IMG/VR virus record: IMGVR_UViG_3300025162_000006 | Coordinates: 1-64,000 of that record | Strand: one strand, 5' to 3' | Length of the DNA: 64,000 nucleotides | Source: a virus | In this document: positions 8,214-61,237 of the stretch, in pieces | How positions within the stretch are numbered: the first letter of the stretch is position 1 | Layout: each line of letters begins with the position of its first letter | The notes under the pieces: generated by a model | Database searches by the model: none | What the model was told of the DNA's origin: nothing | Seen by the model: only the letters and a program-made list of their open reading frames with translations | Translations under genes and position numbers: made by a program

Positions 8214-10742
8214 ATGGGCATGAAAATAAGTGAGAAAATCGGAAATTATGTATATCAGGCTCTACGAAGAAGGTTCGGAGGCACAGTTCCAATGCCTATA
8301 TCAGACGGTCAAAGATCGTCAATGCCTACCTTTGCAGGGTTCGTTCCCACAACAAAGTTACAACCGGTAACACTGGATTTTGCCCGAGAGTGGTTCTCCA
8401 CCATGGAACACCTTGCGGTATATAATCCTGATGTAGCTTATGCACTGGATAACATTGTCCAGTTGGCAAACACTGACCATGAGATAACTTTCTCCGATGA
8501 AGTTACCGCAGATCAGGCAAGGGAAATGAAAAAGTTTTTACGGACTGAGGAGAAGAAATGGTACCATCACTCCGGAGGTCAAAGATCATTGAAAAGTGAT
8601 CTTATTTCGCAAGTGGTCATTAATGGCGCTCTCAGTGCCGAGATCATCCCGCTCCCTGATTTGTCAGGAGTTAAACAGATCGCAAGGGTATCACCAAAAT
8701 ACATTTATTTCGTTTACGATTTGGAGAGCGATAATTTTGAACCATATCAAATTATCAATACCAATGCAATGTCAAGCCAGTACGCACAAGGGGATACATT
8801 CATAGGTATGAAAAAACTGAATAACATCACTTACAAGTATATCGCTTGGAGAAGAATATTTGAGGGTCCATATCCTACTCCCCCTTTCATTGCGGCGATT
8901 GAGGGGTTATTGATTCAAAAGGATATGACCGCAAACCTGAAATTTATTATTCAGAAATTAGGAATGCTTGGATTCCTCTCCGCAGAGGTTACCCCGCCTG
9001 AGATGGGAGTTACCGAAACGGAAACTGAATATTACGATCGCCTTGTTAATTATCTCGAAACGAAAGTGTATCCTCAACTGGAAAAGAATCTCGGTAAGGG
9101 TATGGTTGCGGGATTCAAAGACACTCATAAATTCACCTTACAGGGAAACAATATGAATGTCACTGGTGCAGAGGGATTAGTAAAGATCGTTCAACTGATG
9201 ATCTTCGCCGGTTTGAAACAGGACCCCAATATGCTCGGCCGTAATTACTCCACAACGGAAACCTTTGGCAGAGTTATCCTCCGGAAGATGATCTCCCAAG
9301 TGAGAGATTACCAACAGGTAGTTGATGCATTCTATTCCGAAATGTATTACCTGGCATTGAGGTTAGCGGGTTACTCCCCCGGGTTCGTCGATGTAAAAAG
9401 CAAGACCGCTCTTGTCAGTGATATGGTTGCGGAACAACAGGCGGAGAACTTAAAGATCGGCAATGTAATTAAAAAGCGCAACGCCGGTTTTATAGATCAA
9501 ACCACAGGAGCGCAAGAACTGGAATACGAAACACCCGCAGAGGAAGGACCAGTATATAACGATCAGGGTCAGGAGATCGTTCCGGTTGAAGATCTCGTAC
9601 CTGATGCAACACCCCCTGATGGCACACCCGAAGATATGAATCCGGAAACGGACCCAGTAACCGGTAAACCCAACAAAAAAGATAAGAAGAAACCGGTTCC
9701 GGAGGTTACCGATGAACAGAGTAATATCAGGGAGATACAAAGGTTTGAGGCTCAGTTAAAGGCTCATGTTCCAGTGTATCCGTACTTCACCATTGAATGC
9801 GATGGATTAACCGCAGAACCAACATATCAAAGGTTGGAATTCGGGGATGAAACCGTACAACATTATGCCGATCACTACTTTGCCGACAGTTATGCAATTT
9901 ATGTAAAAGCGGTTCGGGATATTACTGACAGGGTTGCTCACACGCTATCCCTGAAAGATCGGTCATTAGAGGTTGAATCAGTATGTGCACTGGTCTATCT
10001 CGAAATATTGAGAGGGTGGGATAACTTGTATCTCCACAAGCAGAATACCGTCACGAAAAACAATGTTGACAAAATCTATTCTCACTACCGCAAGGACAAA
10101 CGGATATTCTCGAAAAGTGCCACGATCTCAAATGAAGCGATCAGTTACAAGGATGCTCCGATACCGGAAGCACTTTTCGACATGAATGATTTCAGGGCAA
10201 TAGAACACGCTTGCAGTGTTGACAGTATGTACCTTGGGAAATTCATAACTGACCCTGATGTAAAAAAGAAAGTGTACCGGTTAATGAGAGAGCGGTATAT
10301 TGAGGGGAGTGTTCCGTTCGGTAATAATCCCGGCTTTGTCAGTGATTTCAAGAAGCAATTCAGTGAGTTAATGCAACATGAATCATGGAAGATCAGGCGT
10401 ATAATTGATACCACTGTATCGTCTCTACGCAATGATGCGAACATAAAGTACATGAATCAGGCAAGGGTACAGAAATTTGAGGTTATTGAGGTTGTTGACG
10501 AGAATACTTGCGAATATTGCCAAACATTGAATGGGATGGAGTTTGAGGTTCCACAAGCAGTGAGCAAGATCACTGGAAAGATCAGTGCGGGACCGGAGAG
10601 TATTAACAGTGTTTCACCATTTGCAACGATTATCAATTTAGCAACATTTAAGGGGATGGATTCCAGTGCCATGTCGGCCTCCGGAATTCAGCAACCGCCG
10701 TATCATCCTCATTGTAGGGGTAGAATTGTCGCAGTAATTTAA
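8214..10742 (+). CDS. Portal protein fused to MuF-like head protein
   Basis: Residues 1-about 440 look like a phage portal: the dodecameric ring at the capsid vertex through which DNA passes, with a helical wing and long stem helices. A Pro/Asp/Lys-rich linker (about 450-515) leads to a C-terminal region ending in a Cys-rich site (CEYC) and a final PPYHPHCRGR motif, the hallmark of MuF/SPP1 gp7-type head morphogenesis proteins. At 842 aa it is much longer than a portal alone, so the two usually separate genes are joined. The start at 8214 has a second ATG at 8220. Confidence 0.88.
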   Translation: MGMKISEKIGNYVYQALRRRFGGTVPMPISDGQRSSMPTFAGFVPTTKLQPVTLDFAREWFSTMEHLAVYNPDVAYALDNIVQLANTDHEITFSDEVTADQAREMKKFLRTEEKKWYHHSGGQRSLKSDLISQVVINGALSAEIIPLPDLSGVKQIARVSPKYIYFVYDLESDNFEPYQIINTNAMSSQYAQGDTFIGMKKLNNITYKYIAWRRIFEGPYPTPPFIAAIEGLLIQKDMTANLKFIIQKLGMLGFLSAEVTPPEMGVTETETEYYDRLVNYLETKVYPQLEKNLGKGMVAGFKDTHKFTLQGNNMNVTGAEGLVKIVQLMIFAGLKQDPNMLGRNYSTTETFGRVILRKMISQVRDYQQVVDAFYSEMYYLALRLAGYSPGFVDVKSKTALVSDMVAEQQAENLKIGNVIKKRNAGFIDQTTGAQELEYETPAEEGPVYNDQGQEIVPVEDLVPDATPPDGTPEDMNPETDPVTGKPNKKDKKKPVPEVTDEQSNIREIQRFEAQLKAHVPVYPYFTIECDGLTAEPTYQRLEFGDETVQHYADHYFADSYAIYVKAVRDITDRVAHTLSLKDRSLEVESVCALVYLEILRGWDNLYLHKQNTVTKNNVDKIYSHYRKDKRIFSKSATISNEAISYKDAPIPEALFDMNDFRAIEHACSVDSMYLGKFITDPDVKKKVYRLMRERYIEGSVPFGNNPGFVSDFKKQFSELMQHESWKIRRIIDTTVSSLRNDANIKYMNQARVQKFEVIEVVDENTCEYCQTLNGMEFEVPQAVSKITGKISAGPESINSVSPFATIINLATFKGMDSSAMSASGIQQPPYHPHCRGRIVAVI

Positions 10743-54571: not shown

Positions 54572-54592
54572 TTTTTTATAATTAACAAAATG

Positions 54593-54603
54593 TTATTATT
54601 TTG
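54593..54603 (+). promoter_or_regulatory. Weak candidate -7 box before the transporter gene
   Basis: TTATTATTTTG, a loose version of the Bacteroidota -7 box, lies 43 bases before the start codon at 54646 in a gap of 74 bases. No TTG sits at the right distance. An inverted repeat TTAATT/AATTAA lies upstream (54569-54586). Confidence 0.3.
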
Positions 54604-54645
54604 CCAACGATAATTCACTGATTTATTCACTAAAAACAAGAAAAC

Positions 54646-56049
54646 ATGAATGTATTATCGCAAAGTCAAGGGTGGTTCATCCTGTTAATGTACTTACTGG
54701 TTATGTGCGTACTGGCATGGTGGTACTCCCGAAATGACGGGAAGATGACAAAGTTATCATTTCTCGTTGCCAACAGAACTATTCAGGGATGGTATGCGGC
54801 CTTATCAATAGCTGCCACTTGGATATGGGCGCCCGCTTTATTCGTTGCTTCGGAAAAGGCATACACGCAAGGAATTGCAGGGGCGTTTTGGTTCATTGCT
54901 CCGAATGTTGGCGTGTTGGTTTTATTCGGTTTTTTCGCTAACTGGATGCGGAAGAAAAAGCCGGAGGGTTGGACATTCTCCGATTCAATCAGGGAGTCCT
55001 ACTCGAATCGTACTCACAATTTATTTTTAATTGAGAGTTTCGGATTGCAAACAATGTCATTTGCGGTCCAGTTATTGGCGGGTGCTGCCGTAATGAGTAA
55101 GATTACAGGGATAGGATTCTTCCCGCTTACCGTTGCCCTGGCAGTTATACCGATCATTTACACTTTCCTGAAAGGGTTAAAGACAAGCATCATGACGGAC
55201 TACTGGCAAATGCTCGTCATTGCGGTGGTCCTGATTGTTGGTTTACCGTTCCTATTCGCAAGGACAGAACCCGGCTCCATTATCAGGGGATTGTCCGGAG
55301 CGAGTGGTAAGTTCGGCTCTCTCTTTGACTCAAACGGATTAAATGTTTTCCTCACATTCGGTTTGAGTACAACCATTGGACTGTTATCAGGTCCATTCGG
55401 AGATCAAATGTTTTGGCAAAGGATTTTTGCGGTTAAAAGGAATCAGGTCAAATCGACCATGATGTGGGCCGCAGTGTTCTTCGCCATTGTTCCGATCTCA
55501 CTGGCTCTATTCGGGTTTGCGGTTGCCGGTTCCCATGTTGAAAACGCCAACACTCAATTAACGAACCTCACTGCGGTATTGAACTGGACCCCGACATGGT
55601 TCATCTGGCTTTTTATCGTACTGATTTTATCCGGATTGATCTCTACATTGGACAGTATTATCACGGCGGTATCTTCCATTGTCGGTCATGACATTCAGGT
55701 AAGAACACAATTCAAGTTTGATGTCGTGAATGCCTCCCGTATTGCCATGGTGGTAGTGACTATCGTAGGTATTTGCATAGCGAATATTCCCGGCCTCAAA
55801 ATTGTGTACCTGTTCATGCTTTACGGGACATTGAGGGCATCGGTATTGCTCCCGACCATGTGGCATATCCTCGATAAAAAAATGTCGGAGAAAGGCCTGT
55901 TTTACGGTATCCTGATAAGTATGGCGGTAGGGTTACCGATATTCGGGTATGGAAACCTCAATAAGATCACTTGGATGATCGTTGGCGGTTCCCTGATCTC
56001 GCTCCTTGCCAGTGGGATAATCTCACGCCTCGGGAAGAACAAAGTTTAA
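54646..56049 (+). CDS. Sodium:solute symporter (SSS family)
   Basis: 467 aa membrane transporter with about 12-13 hydrophobic segments. Family features include an N-terminal LSFLVANRTIQGWYAALS stretch (substrate/sodium side of TM1), a GPFGDQMFWQRIFAVK motif between TM7 and TM8, and LSGLISTLDSIITAVSS in the LeuT-like core. Substrates in the family range from sugars and sialic acid to proline, urea and vitamins; sequence alone does not say which. A phage-encoded SSS transporter is unusual. It forms a unit with the outer-membrane gene that follows. Confidence 0.9.
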   Translation: MNVLSQSQGWFILLMYLLVMCVLAWWYSRNDGKMTKLSFLVANRTIQGWYAALSIAATWIWAPALFVASEKAYTQGIAGAFWFIAPNVGVLVLFGFFANWMRKKKPEGWTFSDSIRESYSNRTHNLFLIESFGLQTMSFAVQLLAGAAVMSKITGIGFFPLTVALAVIPIIYTFLKGLKTSIMTDYWQMLVIAVVLIVGLPFLFARTEPGSIIRGLSGASGKFGSLFDSNGLNVFLTFGLSTTIGLLSGPFGDQMFWQRIFAVKRNQVKSTMMWAAVFFAIVPISLALFGFAVAGSHVENANTQLTNLTAVLNWTPTWFIWLFIVLILSGLISTLDSIITAVSSIVGHDIQVRTQFKFDVVNASRIAMVVVTIVGICIANIPGLKIVYLFMLYGTLRASVLLPTMWHILDKKMSEKGLFYGILISMAVGLPIFGYGNLNKITWMIVGGSLISLLASGIISRLGKNKV

Positions 56050-56081
56050 TTTCAAAGTATCAATTCAAAACAGATTTTAAG

Positions 56082-56780
56082 ATGAAAAAGATTTTAACAT
56101 TATTCGCAGTGCTATTATGCACGATCTCACTGAATGCACAAGTATATGACGGTATCACACAACCCACAAGGTGGCGGGTATGGTTCCCTGCACAAATGAG
56201 TGTTGCACCCGCTAAAACAACTACGCCAACGGTTGCTCCATTCGTGGGGTATAAGGTTGACTTGGCGAAATGGGTAAACCTGACAGCAATATATCAATAC
56301 AATATCAACAAACACGCCCATATCCCGCAAGTATGGATGAACTTCAACATTAACAAAAAGGTATATTTCCTGTTCCGCACCGGATACAATACTCAGGCGA
56401 ACCAGTTATTTGAAACCGTCTCCGGTACATGGAAAGCGCCATTGAACCTGATGTTGGATTTCACTTGGCAAAACCTGATTGTTAATAACTTCAATGAGGG
56501 AGCGACAAAGGGAACGCAAATGTTTGAGACATACGACAATTTTCAGGTACTCGGGGGATGGAAACTCACTGTTAAAGGGCGGGATATATTCGTCATTAAC
56601 ACTGGTTGGCGGTTCCGACAGGAGTATGTTAATAACAAGTACAATGCCGGTTTGATCTCGAACCTCCGGTTAATTGTGTATCAAAAGAACTGGCTGCAAT
56701 TCGGGTATGATTACACGAATAAAATGTTAACCGCAGCGGCCGTTATCCAGTTCGACAATTTTACAGACAAGAAGAAGTAA
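56082..56780 (+). CDS. Outer-membrane beta-barrel protein with signal peptide
   Basis: 232 aa from ATG 56082 (the longer in-frame start lies inside the transporter gene). Signal peptide MKKILTLFAVLLCTISLNA, cleaved near AQV. The mature part alternates strands (YKVDLAKWVNLTAIYQYNIN; KKVYFLFRTGYNT; WLQFGYDYTN) with aromatic girdle residues and ends near a short basic tail, as in 10-12 strand barrels. It could be a porin supplying the symporter, or a surface-exclusion protein. Confidence 0.78.
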   Translation: MKKILTLFAVLLCTISLNAQVYDGITQPTRWRVWFPAQMSVAPAKTTTPTVAPFVGYKVDLAKWVNLTAIYQYNINKHAHIPQVWMNFNINKKVYFLFRTGYNTQANQLFETVSGTWKAPLNLMLDFTWQNLIVNNFNEGATKGTQMFETYDNFQVLGGWKLTVKGRDIFVINTGWRFRQEYVNNKYNAGLISNLRLIVYQKNWLQFGYDYTNKMLTAAAVIQFDNFTDKKK

Positions 56781-56800
56781 ACCGTTATTAATCCGGAGAA

Positions 56801-56829
56801 AGGTGGGGGAGCGATCTCCCGCCTTTTTT
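56801..56829 (+). terminator. Intrinsic terminator
   Basis: AGGTGGGGGAG / CTCCCGCCT stem with a short bulge and a CGAT loop, then six T. It isolates the transporter/barrel pair from the modification-type gene chain that starts at 56835. Confidence 0.82.
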
Positions 56830-56834
56830 AAGCT

Positions 56835-57578
56835 ATGAAACAACTCACTTGGAAAAACGAAACAAGAAAACTTTCTGATCTCATACCTTGGGAAAAGAAT
56901 CCCATGATCATGACCGATTCCAAATTTGAAAAACTGGTCGGGCAGATCAATTCATTCGGGTTTACGAATCCGTTTGTTATTAACATTGATAACATGATCG
57001 TTTGCGGTCACTCCCGCAGAAAGGCATTGATTCAGTTGGGTCGGGTGGATGAAGAAGTTCCTGTAAGGGTCCCGAATCGTGCGCTCTCTTCGGAAGAATT
57101 TGAATTGATCGCATTGGGGGATAACCGGTATATTTCAGCATTTGACCCGAAACTTGTATCCGCAAATTTTAACCCTGATGTATTACTGAAACTCGGGTTT
57201 GAAAGATGGGAATTCGGCAACCTGAATAACGATCTACTTGCAACAATGCCAACCTTTGCGGATAGACCTGATTCAAAGTTACCGGAAGATGATCGCTCCA
57301 CGCTCACACCTATTGACCTCGAAGCATTGAAAAGTGAGGGCAGTCAGTTACCGGAGCACAATGAACAGGAACCATCCGCAGAGCAAACCCAAACCGAAAA
57401 GGAAATGGCCTTTGAATTGCTCCTGAAATTATCCGTTCGGAGATCTGCTTACCAGTTGATAACCGAACTCAGGGAAAAGTATAATGCCACTACGGTATCT
57501 CAGGCGTTCCTGATGATAATTGAAACGATGGAGAGAGCGAAAGACCATCCTGATTTCAAAGACATTTTCGGAAAATAA
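56835..57578 (+). CDS. ParB-like protein, methylase-associated type
   Basis: 247 aa. ParB N-domain at about 10-110 with LSDLIPWEKNPMIM, a GHSRRKALIQLG motif and ALGDNRY..FDPKLV, a pattern common in phage ParB proteins found near DNA-modification genes. Acidic disordered linker (about 135-185) and a helical C-terminus. The ParB fold is known to bind DNA and, in some members, NTP. First gene of the overlapping chain. Confidence 0.82.
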   Translation: MKQLTWKNETRKLSDLIPWEKNPMIMTDSKFEKLVGQINSFGFTNPFVINIDNMIVCGHSRRKALIQLGRVDEEVPVRVPNRALSSEEFELIALGDNRYISAFDPKLVSANFNPDVLLKLGFERWEFGNLNNDLLATMPTFADRPDSKLPEDDRSTLTPIDLEALKSEGSQLPEHNEQEPSAEQTQTEKEMAFELLLKLSVRRSAYQLITELREKYNATTVSQAFLMIIETMERAKDHPDFKDIFGK

Positions 57579-57584
57579 ACAACC

Positions 57585-58172
57585 ATGTGCGGGATATATG
57601 GATACATAGGTAGTTTCGCAAGTTTTGATGTTATTAAAAAACTGATTAAATTAGCTGAAACAAGAGGGAAAAAACAGCATGGATTCAGTTATATAAAAAA
57701 CGGAATGCTTTTCACTTACAAAAATACCGGTCGGGCAAGTAGAACGCTCTCACACGCTAAAAGGGTGGAGGGAGCGCAATGCATTATCGGTATCGCTCAA
57801 AATAATACAGGGCGGTTCTCCGGTGGTCCGCAGCCGTTCACTGATGGAGAGAGCGTTTCAGTTGTTATACTGGATGATTTCAGCAGCTATAAAAGTTTAT
57901 TCCGTAACCATGACCGTAAAACACCCGCACAGATCAATTCGGTAGCCTGTATTGAGAGATTAAACCGGAGTGATATATCACCATCAAAACTACATAGAAC
58001 GCTCCCTACGCATCTCGTATTGACAATTCAGGATAACACTTTTTATGTTATGAATAAAGAGTTACCCCTGTACATTGAAGAATTACCTGATGGATTAATT
58101 TTCAGTTCCAGGCGAATTTCAGAAAAAAGCAAACCATTATTCAATTCATTCATTCATCATGTCGTTAAGTAA
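57585..58172 (+). CDS. Stand-alone class II glutamine amidotransferase
   Basis: 195 aa N-terminal-nucleophile amidotransferase. Cys2 directly follows the initiator Met (MCGIYGYIG), the catalytic nucleophile of PurF/GlmS/AsnB-type enzymes; GRASRTLSHAKRV and IGIAQNNTGRFSGGPQPF occupy the positions of the glutamine-binding loop (normally ..HNGxI..). It would hydrolyse glutamine and hand ammonia to a partner. There is no synthase domain on the same chain; the PP-loop gene overlapping by 14 bases is the natural candidate. Confidence 0.83.
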   Translation: MCGIYGYIGSFASFDVIKKLIKLAETRGKKQHGFSYIKNGMLFTYKNTGRASRTLSHAKRVEGAQCIIGIAQNNTGRFSGGPQPFTDGESVSVVILDDFSSYKSLFRNHDRKTPAQINSVACIERLNRSDISPSKLHRTLPTHLVLTIQDNTFYVMNKELPLYIEELPDGLIFSSRRISEKSKPLFNSFIHHVVK

Positions 58173-59433
58173 AGAATTTCAGGAAACAAATGTATGGGAA
58201 GCCTCACAGGAACGGGTAAAACTGGTATTTGATCGTTTCGATCATGTCTCAGTCAGCTTTTCCGGTGGTAAAGATTCAACCGTTGTGCTACATTTAGCAC
58301 TGGAAGAAGCCGAGCGCAGGGGAAGATTACCACTTGATGTTTTCCATTTTGACGAAGAAGCCATACACCCTCCAACGATGGAGTATGTTGCCCGAGTAGC
58401 CAGTAACCCGAAGATAAGATTCCTTTGGTTCTGCCTACCGGTCCAGCACCGGAACGCATGCTCCCGCAAACAACCGTATTGGTATTGTTGGAACCCGAAA
58501 GAGAAGAATATTTGGGTGCGCCCATTACCGAAAGAGGGTATCACTTATCTCAAAGGATTCGAGGCCGGTATGGATGTCCCTACTGCCTGTACGCTATTAT
58601 ATCCGGAGGTACAGGGAAGTAAAATCCAGTTATTAGGTATCCGCACCGAAGAATCACTCCGTAGGTACAGAGCGGTCACCGCAAGGGTGGAGGATAACTG
58701 GTTATCATTGAGATCAGGTGCCGGTCGGTTTTACAGGGGTTATCCTATTTATGACTGGAGCTCATTAGATGTGTGGATGCCGATAGCAAAATTCGGGTGG
58801 GATTATAACCGCACTTACGATGTTCTCAATATGTACGGGTTCTCCCCGTTGCAGCAAAGGGTTTGTCCTCCCTACGGCGAAGAACCATTACGGGGTTTAC
58901 ACCTTTACAAAGCCTGTTTTCCCAAAATGTGGGATAAAATGATTAACAGGGTGCCGGGGGCCAACGCCGCAGCACTTTACGGAAATAGTGATGTTTACGG
59001 GGTGCGGTTAAAGGAACCCCCCGATGGAATGACATGGAGGGAATATCTCGAAGTGATCATGACCCTTTGGGATACAGAACAGGAAACCCGACTCAGGGAA
59101 CACATTAACGGTCAGATAAAACTCCATTATTACAAGTCAATTCTCCCCATTCACGAATCAAAGAATGACCCAGTGAGCGGTATGAGTTGGCTTTTCCTTT
59201 GTCGAATTGCATTATCAGGTGACCTGAAATTGAGAATAGCGGGGGTTGCCATAAGGGAAACAGGGAAAGCCTGTACGAAAATGGGGATAACAAACGAACA
59301 AGCGATTGAATTATACGGAACTGAAAAATTTAAAAACGATTTCAAAAATGGAACAATCAGGAAACCAAAAGACGATGAAATTGAGGAAGTCATCGGAAAT
59401 GACATCGACCTCGAAAGTGATGCCGGTGAGTAA
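58159..59433 (+). CDS. PAPS-reductase-like PP-loop enzyme (DUF3440, IbrA type)
   Basis: 424 aa. PP-loop SFSGGKDST lies at residues 33-41, the ATP-pyrophosphatase signature that adenylates a substrate. The C-terminal region is that of DUF3440/IbrA proteins (RTEESLRRY, WDYNRTYDVLNMYG, MTWREYLEVIMTLWD). Cys/Trp-rich YWYCWNPKE near 110 may bind substrate or metal. The pair with the ParB protein that overlaps downstream matches the IbrA-IbrB arrangement of mobile elements. Chemistry unknown; AMP-activated amide or thio transfer is possible. Confidence 0.88.
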   Translation: MSLSKEFQETNVWEASQERVKLVFDRFDHVSVSFSGGKDSTVVLHLALEEAERRGRLPLDVFHFDEEAIHPPTMEYVARVASNPKIRFLWFCLPVQHRNACSRKQPYWYCWNPKEKNIWVRPLPKEGITYLKGFEAGMDVPTACTLLYPEVQGSKIQLLGIRTEESLRRYRAVTARVEDNWLSLRSGAGRFYRGYPIYDWSSLDVWMPIAKFGWDYNRTYDVLNMYGFSPLQQRVCPPYGEEPLRGLHLYKACFPKMWDKMINRVPGANAAALYGNSDVYGVRLKEPPDGMTWREYLEVIMTLWDTEQETRLREHINGQIKLHYYKSILPIHESKNDPVSGMSWLFLCRIALSGDLKLRIAGVAIRETGKACTKMGITNEQAIELYGTEKFKNDFKNGTIRKPKDDEIEEVIGNDIDLESDAGE

Positions 59434-59911
59434 TGTACAGTGGGTACATAGATCAGAATTAACGGCAAATGATTACAACCCGAATTATGTTGCGGGTCCC
59501 GAAATGAAACTCCTGAAAACCTCCATCATGGAGGATGGATGGACAGTGCCACTGGTAATTGATGAAAAGGGTACCATCATTGACGGATTCCACAGATTCA
59601 CGCTCTCCGCAGATGCGGAAATTTACGCTCTCACGGATGGATGGTTACCGGTTGTTATTTTGACGAGAGATCAAAATGCAAGGCGGTTATCCACGATCAG
59701 GCACAACAGGGCAAGAGGTACTCATGCAGTGATTGAAATGTCGACAATCGTGCGCTTTTTACTGGAACACAATATGACGGTTCCTGAAATACAGGCACGC
59801 TTGGGGATGGATGAAGAAGAAGTTTACCGGTTATCCGCAAAGGGTGGTATGCCGGCACAAGCGATCAGGCAGCAAAAAGATTTCAGCAAATCATGGAACC
59901 CGAAAGGATAA
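59420..59911 (+). CDS. ParB-like protein, IbrB type
   Basis: About 163 aa from ATG 59420; in-frame starts at 59306-59399 lie inside the previous gene. ParB domain: ANDYNPNYVAGPEMKLLKTSI, DGWTVPLVID, IIDGFHRFTLS and RHNRARGTH. A helical C-terminus with LGMDEEEVYRLS could be a helix-turn-helix. Always seen beside DUF3440 proteins in this arrangement, so the two probably act together. Confidence 0.82.
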   Translation: MPVSNVQWVHRSELTANDYNPNYVAGPEMKLLKTSIMEDGWTVPLVIDEKGTIIDGFHRFTLSADAEIYALTDGWLPVVILTRDQNARRLSTIRHNRARGTHAVIEMSTIVRFLLEHNMTVPEIQARLGMDEEEVYRLSAKGGMPAQAIRQQKDFSKSWNPKG

Positions 59912-60255
59912 AAGTAATTGCCATTACCGGCAGCCGATCAGGTATTGACAGGGGAACAGTGCACCAGTATTTGAGTGCGCTGCTCTCCCTTGGCAATTAT
60001 GAGATCGTGACCGGTGGTGCAAAAGGGGTTGACAGATTCGCTATTGAATTTGCGGAATTACATGGAATAAAGCATACCGAAATTCTACCTGATTATAACC
60101 GTTATAGCACAGTGGCGCCAATTATCAGGAACAAAGAGATCGTAAAAAATGCGGATATGGTATATGCTTTTTGGGATGGATTAAGTAAGGGAACTTTACA
60201 CACTATCACCTATGCAAGCAAAATCGGAAAAAGAATACTCGTTATTAAAAACTGA
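59893..60255 (+). CDS. SLOG-fold nucleotide-binding protein, YspA/DUF2493-like
   Basis: 120 aa Rossmann-like protein: TGSR (residues 12-15), VTGGAKGVDRFA (39-50), LPDYNRY and FWDGLSKGT, all hallmarks of the YspA branch of the SLOG family. Related proteins bind nucleotides, ADP-ribose derivatives or cleave base-sugar bonds (LOG type, though the LOG motif PGGxGTxxE is absent). Overlaps both neighbours, so it belongs to the same pathway. Confidence 0.85.
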   Translation: MEPERIKVIAITGSRSGIDRGTVHQYLSALLSLGNYEIVTGGAKGVDRFAIEFAELHGIKHTEILPDYNRYSTVAPIIRNKEIVKNADMVYAFWDGLSKGTLHTITYASKIGKRILVIKN

Positions 60256-61237
60256 CAATGGCATTTATGGATTATACACCTACCATAGCACTTGGACCTC
60301 TGCCTCCGGTCCGCTCAATGACCCCGAAAGTCAGAGGCAAAACAATATAGTTGCGGGATTCAAGAATAGAGGCCACAATACCGAACTGTTTTCCCGAAGG
60401 ATAAAACAGGTTGCTCTCCTGTTAAACTGTACACGAATCGTTGCCGTACCTCCGCACGATCTGAAACAGAGCAATATTCAAAAGTTGTTTCCTGGCAATG
60501 GGATTATTCGCACCACGCCCGGGCCCAAACGGAAATACAAAAAAAATGAGTTATCCCTCTCTCATTTTTCAATCAGTGATACAAAAGAGCGCACCCTACT
60601 GGTGGATGATCTCTCTACCACTGGATACACCTTAAAATTCTTCGCTAATTCATTTCAGGATTGTGAGTTATTCGCTATTGGTATCAATGCGAAACTTAAT
60701 CCACGCACAGTCCGGATGCTCCAAGATCAGGATATCAAGCCTCAGCCTGAGATCAAACCGGAGGATACTGGTAAGATACAGGTTGACAATGTAAGCGACA
60801 GGGTGGCGTTCATTGCTGCTTTACAGAATGGAATGGGGTTAACTCATGGGTGCAGATTAATCCAGTGGCACCCGAAAGAAATGTCCGCTCTACTGATTCG
60901 GGAACCGGAATTCCGCAAAGAGTGTGAACACGCTCTAAAATTCGCCTCGAAAGCCTTACTGGTCATGAGTAACAGTTTTCTCGAAAATAAGAAATTCGAC
61001 AAATGGCTCCATCAGAACGAATACATTAAGGCGTTCCATACCGATCTCAATGTTTGGGAGTGTTACCGGCGTAGGGAATTGGTAACGGATATTGATCTCA
61101 TTAACGGATTCAGGATATTCGGTAGCATTGGAGAACTGGCTACCTCTACCGGTTTTACCGGACCTGAATTGATTGAACATATTGCTACAAACAAACGGTT
61201 GTCAATTTATTTCACTGAAATAGGAGTGTTAAAATGA
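60212..61237 (+). CDS. Phosphoribosyltransferase-domain protein
   Basis: 341 aa. PRPP-binding motif LLVDDLSTTGYT at residues 129-140, preceded by FSRRIKQVALLL and IVAVPPHD strands, matches type I phosphoribosyltransferases. The C-terminal half (about 190-341) is a separate domain of unknown family that includes a helix-turn-helix-like GSIGELATSTGFTGPELIEHI. It would add or remove ribose-5-phosphate on a base, or act as a sensor. It begins 44 bases inside the SLOG gene, the only ATG start available. Confidence 0.82.
   Translation: MQAKSEKEYSLLKTDNGIYGLYTYHSTWTSASGPLNDPESQRQNNIVAGFKNRGHNTELFSRRIKQVALLLNCTRIVAVPPHDLKQSNIQKLFPGNGIIRTTPGPKRKYKKNELSLSHFSISDTKERTLLVDDLSTTGYTLKFFANSFQDCELFAIGINAKLNPRTVRMLQDQDIKPQPEIKPEDTGKIQVDNVSDRVAFIAALQNGMGLTHGCRLIQWHPKEMSALLIREPEFRKECEHALKFASKALLVMSNSFLENKKFDKWLHQNEYIKAFHTDLNVWECYRRRELVTDIDLINGFRIFGSIGELATSTGFTGPELIEHIATNKRLSIYFTEIGVLK

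Follow-up and report, generated by a model that had tools for sequence, protein, structure and literature searches.

The 64,000-nt window analysed here, part of a 69,208-bp phage record with genes for portal, head protease, major head protein, tail sheath, tape measure and baseplate, contains a sodium:solute symporter gene followed by the gene of a putative outer-membrane barrel. In Bacteroidota, Clostridia and spirochaetes, related symporters were found in phage and prophage genomes beside PP-loop and ParB-like enzymes. We judge the chances to be about even that the symporter is a Na+-coupled importer, accompanied by a porin in Bacteroidota-type phages, which is dedicated to this phage PP-loop/ParB enzyme module.

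The symporter gene (54646-56049, + strand) is a complete open reading frame of 467 aa and is separated by 32 nt from the barrel gene (56082-56780, + strand; 232 aa including the signal peptide). The program-listed frame of the barrel starts at a TTG at 55971, while an alignment of 17 orthologues places the start at 56082, from which the protein reads MKKILTLFAVLLCTISLNA followed by QVYDGITQ... The pair ends in an intrinsic terminator (56796-56829, + strand), a hairpin of -23.1 kcal/mol followed by T6, and only 1 of 200 shuffled sequences gave an equally good hairpin (z -3.1). The first-pass annotation had read this stretch as a two-gene unit of an SSS symporter and a signal-peptide-bearing barrel with a strong terminator at its end, and both points are borne out, the former by the PF00474 match, the structure models and the orthologue alignment described below. 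It had also placed a gap and a weak promoter-like sequence ahead of the symporter. The gap is there (74 nt, 54572-54645), but the promoter did not hold up: a sigma-70-like scan of the gap gave no forward site and a single site on the minus strand, no Bacteroidota-type -33/-7 match was found in it, and promoter-like sites around the symporter were rarer than in shuffled sequence.

Downstream on the + strand follow a ParB-like gene in the ParB1 position of the conserved module (56835-57578; phrog_620, E 7e-19; phrog_498, ParB with DNA methyltransferase, E 2e-17), a gene for a probable class-II glutamine-amidotransferase-like protein (57585-58172), the gene for a PAPS-reductase-like PP-loop protein with DUF3440 that is IbrA-like (PAPSR; 58159-59433; PF01507, E 1.7e-13; PF11922, E 2.1e-16; phrog_2302, E 7e-86) and a gene for an IbrB-like ParB protein (ParB2; 59306-59911; phrog_2159, E 3e-64). 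The PAPSR gene is present in a single copy in the phage genome and overlaps the ParB2 gene at 59306-59433. The amidotransferase-like assignment is read from a motif (MCGIYGYIGS...QPF), as the frame had no match in Pfam, PHROG or the PDB; it occupies the slot where relatives carry an extra PP-loop gene. Further downstream, a frame at 60212-61237 contains a phosphoribosyltransferase-like motif (LLVDDLSTTGYTL). A phosphoribosyltransferase chain had been suggested as the consumer of the transported substrate, a proposal that we abandon, given that this frame lacks a Pfam match and is not found beside the symporter in relatives.

The symporter matched PF00474 (SSF) over residues 39-424 with an E-value of 2.8e-23 and 82.9 bits against a gathering cut-off of 22.8. 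It also matched phrog_20720, a PHROG without assigned function (E 7e-105), and the TIGR00813 superfamily model over its full length, the latter below the model's own cut-off (97.8 vs 184 bits). A structure predicted with 19 phage orthologues (pLDDT 90) fits solved SSS transporters over 430-465 residues with Z scores of 30-40, the best folds being CHT1 (Z 40.6), DUR3 (Z 38.5) and SiaT (Z 37.1) over 442-449 residues. Among proteins of solved structure, DUR3 urea/polyamine symporters come closest in sequence (E 3e-29), followed by a bacterial choline transporter (CHT; E 9e-19), although for most SSS subfamilies no structure has been solved. The phage protein thus shares the fold of DUR3 and CHT, but it is only about 20% identical to them, is phage-encoded beside terminase genes and, at 467 aa, lacks the long C-terminal part of DUR3.

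In CHT1, Na+ is bound by S346 and S347 at Na2 and by D188, D349 and S350 at Na3 (PMC11589582). By alignment, these positions correspond to S333 and T334 (Na2) and to D185, D336 and S337 (Na3) of the phage symporter, and S340/T341 of Escherichia coli PutP align with the same Na2 pair. S333/T334 and D185/S337 are kept in all 93 phage-type proteins compared and D336 in 92 of them, the exception being D336S. This likeness to CHT1 and PutP is strong evidence that the symporter couples to Na+ via Na2 and Na3 sites, and the direction of transport is probably import. Five residues near the presumed pocket (W59, W61, D253, Q254 and W257) are invariant in the same 93 proteins. As in DUR3, the alignment shows a W-x-W-A motif in TM1 and an aspartate in TM6, whereas the aromatic cage of CHT1 (W141, W254) is absent. 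The pocket looks more DUR3/urea-like than choline-like, although naming a substrate on that basis would be speculative. Among close relatives (L003/L004, L003/L031, L005/L034 and L005/L035), dN/dS was approximately 0.04-0.06 for the symporter and 0.08-0.10 for the barrel; the L026/L032 pair gave higher values for both. The symporter is under purifying selection and its core residues are intact.

The barrel protein had no family match in Pfam, NCBIfam or PHROG, and its likeness to known proteins is one of fold alone. The model (pLDDT 82) contains 12 strands according to DSSP, and its best Foldseek match is the KdgM porin. It aligns with autotransporter, COG4313, KdgM and NanC barrels at Z 15-19, with KdgM/NanC tied with the autotransporter barrels. 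In strand number and size it resembles the small porins KdgM and NanC and the COG4313 channel. Unlike these, to which it is 6-12% identical, it has a conserved N-terminal QVYDGITQP and always adjoins a phage symporter, its relatives having been found solely by their position beside the symporter gene. Invariant polar residues occur in pairs spaced i, i+2 within strands (T116/K118, D126/T128 and N194/R196); because of this spacing, they lie on one face, which in the model is probably the lumen. Phage records and viral contigs, searched with the single barrel sequence, yielded no homologue. In genomes, the barrel profile matched the prophage copy alone, in three Bacteroidota genomes, and it found no homologue in the full genomes of Clostridia, Treponema and other hosts that were searched.

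In L026 (8001-10304) and at the same position in L032, symporter, a coiled-coil linker and a barrel with signal peptide form one open frame of 768 aa. No ATG stands beside the signal peptide of this fused frame, and possible starts are a TTG at 9714 or an ATG at 9627. We considered a frameshift artefact and rejected it, as the frame is open in both phages, which are 93% identical with many silent differences.

A symporter-only search yielded 28 viral contigs and 80 genome loci, to which a PAPSR search added two. The phage-type set drawn from these and from the window comprises 98 phage or prophage loci with 84 distinct symporter proteins. The barrel gene occurs in each of the 38 Bacteroidota-type loci, in truncated form in the L010 group, L013 and L024, whereas it is absent from the remaining 60, which come almost entirely from Clostridia. 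This distribution fits a pore that is needed where a second membrane exists, but it is suggestive only. In the tree, the symporters of Bacteroidota phages fall into a single clade (support 100), and prophages of Treponema, a diderm host, carry the module without the barrel; since the barrel loci form one clade and Treponema lacks the barrel, the contrast between monoderm and diderm hosts counts as a single evolutionary event.

The company of enzymes is more widely shared. An intact PAPSR gene accompanies the symporter in 87 of the 98 phage-type loci, and the IbrB-like ParB2 is also present in 86. The common gene order is symporter, barrel (where present), PP-loop, ParB, PAPSR/ParB, TerS and TerL; L147 and L164 hold the same set in the permuted order ParB-SSS-PAPSR-ParB. 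In Clostridia prophages, the stop codon of the symporter frequently overlaps the start of the next gene by 4-17 nt. Most loci without the full module either run into the end of a contig (L034, L083, L085) or have suffered an internal deletion (L010 group, L013, L024, L095). Distances between symporters correlate with those between barrels (rho 0.86) and between PAPSR proteins (rho 0.79), and in neither case did any of 2000 permutations reach as high a value. In Eubacterium plexicaudatum ASF492 (L073), the PP-loop gene of the module is interrupted by an insert of about 3.5 kb. Among annotated phage records, we found one clear relative of the symporter only, on the unannotated faecal scaffold MT836198, and a literature search on phage SSS proteins, a symporter-PAPSR-ParB module and DUR3 binding sites returned nothing on point.

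Seen from the enzymes, the picture is different. In a set of 80 viral loci selected through their PAPSR (L118-L197), with a ranking that favoured relatives of the window's PAPSR, ParB2 was present in 76 and the symporter in two. The PAPSR-ParB pair is thus common alone, with the importer as an addition to it, and the enzymes do not always need the importer. Like phage IbrA/IbrB-like pairs (phrog_2302/2159), the window has a PAPSR domain with DUF3440 adjoining a ParB-like gene; unlike plain pairs of this kind, the module also has the symporter, the barrel and an additional ParB, and in many cases a further PP-loop enzyme. The PP-loop/PAPS-reductase domain is also shared with the phosphorothioation enzymes DndC and BrxP. 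However, the DndC match is weak (E 9e-7; 22-28 bits against a curated cut-off of 290.4), and no DndA, DndD or DndE is present at the locus.

At E 1e-60, the symporter type was found in 1 of 295 Bacteroidia genomes, namely in the prophage of the search-centre genome. Hosts already hold several unrelated SSS genes, whose products scored at most 155 bits against the symporter profile compared to more than 630 for the phage type and lie on very long branches in the symporter tree. Non-phage cousins from Patescibacteria, Proteobacteria, Desulfobulbaceae and Armatimonadota adjoin asparagine-synthase-like or other PP-loop genes, and the tie between symporter and PP-loop genes is therefore older or wider than phages. 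In four loci (L044, L046, L047, L080) from several bacterial phyla, a member of the symporter clade forms a conserved trio with an asparagine-synthase-like enzyme and a zinc-ribbon membrane protein that has weak Toprim-like similarity, and an alphaproteobacterial cousin (L049, 6040-11016) is flanked by a signal-peptide protein on one side and a class-II aminoacyl-tRNA-synthetase-like gene on the other. A recent chance acquisition with a broken core, which the first-pass annotation had raised as a counter-reading, is ruled out by the widespread phage clade, the purifying selection, the intact residues and the distances that track those of the barrel. Its reading of the pair as a two-membrane uptake unit is kept, without the phosphoribosyltransferase link, the exclusion of other phages and a promoter of its own.

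In the mechanism that we propose, the symporter would bring a small polar molecule across the inner membrane together with two Na+ (Na2 and Na3), and in Bacteroidota-type phages the 12-strand porin would pass this molecule through the outer membrane. The imported molecule may then feed the neighbouring enzymes: following PP-loop chemistry, the PP-loop ATP-pyrophosphatase/PAPSR enzyme or enzymes could adenylate it or its target, and together with the two ParB-like proteins they might transfer it. The recurrence of the importer beside these enzymes suggests that they need a small molecule from outside the cell. More speculatively, the target of the transfer could be a nucleic acid at about the time of packaging, which is proposed because the module abuts the terminase genes and has ParB-methyltransferase and DndC-like relatives. 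In its most specific form, in which an environmental precursor is built by the PP-loop/ParB enzymes into phage DNA as a new modification before packaging, the idea is tentative and we think it rather unlikely to be right.

SSS proteins usually are nutrient importers, and the symporter might accordingly serve general uptake of a carbon, nitrogen or amino-acid source as an auxiliary metabolic gene, the enzymes merely sharing a moron site before the terminase. Prophage loci within chromosomes (L031, L036, L055 and L082, the last in Anaerotruncus colihominis DSM 17241) imply carriage in lysogens, which would suit such a role. Furthermore, three or more separate deletions begin within the barrel gene and reach into the 3' portion of PAPSR (L010/L011/L012/L016/L018; L013; L024), and they leave the symporter open, with the terminase genes coming next; these variants, which retain the symporter without the enzymes, come from a search that selected for symporters. 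Against nutrient uptake stand the pairing of the symporter with the same enzyme set across three bacterial phyla, in phages that are not related, the frequent gene overlaps, the PP-loop enzymes beside non-phage cousins and the SSS genes that hosts already possess. We consider this explanation somewhat unlikely.

It is also conceivable, but quite improbable, that the symporter handles Na+ or an osmolyte late in infection, or acts as a sensor, and imports no precursor. The two intact Na+ sites would be compatible with ion or osmotic control, as would the resemblance of its fold to that of CHT1, a protein with osmoprotectant-importing relatives. However, the CHT1 cage is not kept, the Pfam search found no sensor or kinase domain in the symporter, and the linkage to the enzymes would be left unexplained. 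Alteration of the envelope or superinfection exclusion, in which the two proteins would alter the surface or sit on receptor sites and so keep other phages out, had been an alternative in the first-pass annotation and is very improbable: exclusion genes are carried by many prophages and the barrel is the more divergent of the two (mean distance 0.54, against 0.39 for the symporter), as surface-exposed proteins would be, but the PADLOC models of known anti-phage defence matched neither protein at E 1e-3, the symporter is conserved without the barrel in the 60 other loci, in Clostridia prophages always with the enzymes, and invariant Na+ and pocket residues would not be required.

Returning to an importer dedicated to the PP-loop/ParB module, we note that phage-borne transport genes are of a known kind and that the conserved enzymatic company is the interesting part. 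PAPSR/ParB pairs are very common in phages, and the usual labels for them, host metabolism or partition, are not backed by evidence; a study of a C. clostridioforme prophage, for example, files the same two PAPSR PHROGs under host metabolism (PMC11318856). The importer is tied to a subset of these pairs, which suggests that their chemistry can depend on an extracellular molecule. Once identified, the cargo of the symporter would be a candidate substrate of the enzymes, and their function would become testable. A phage-encoded route over both membranes would, moreover, be an unusual auxiliary gene set.
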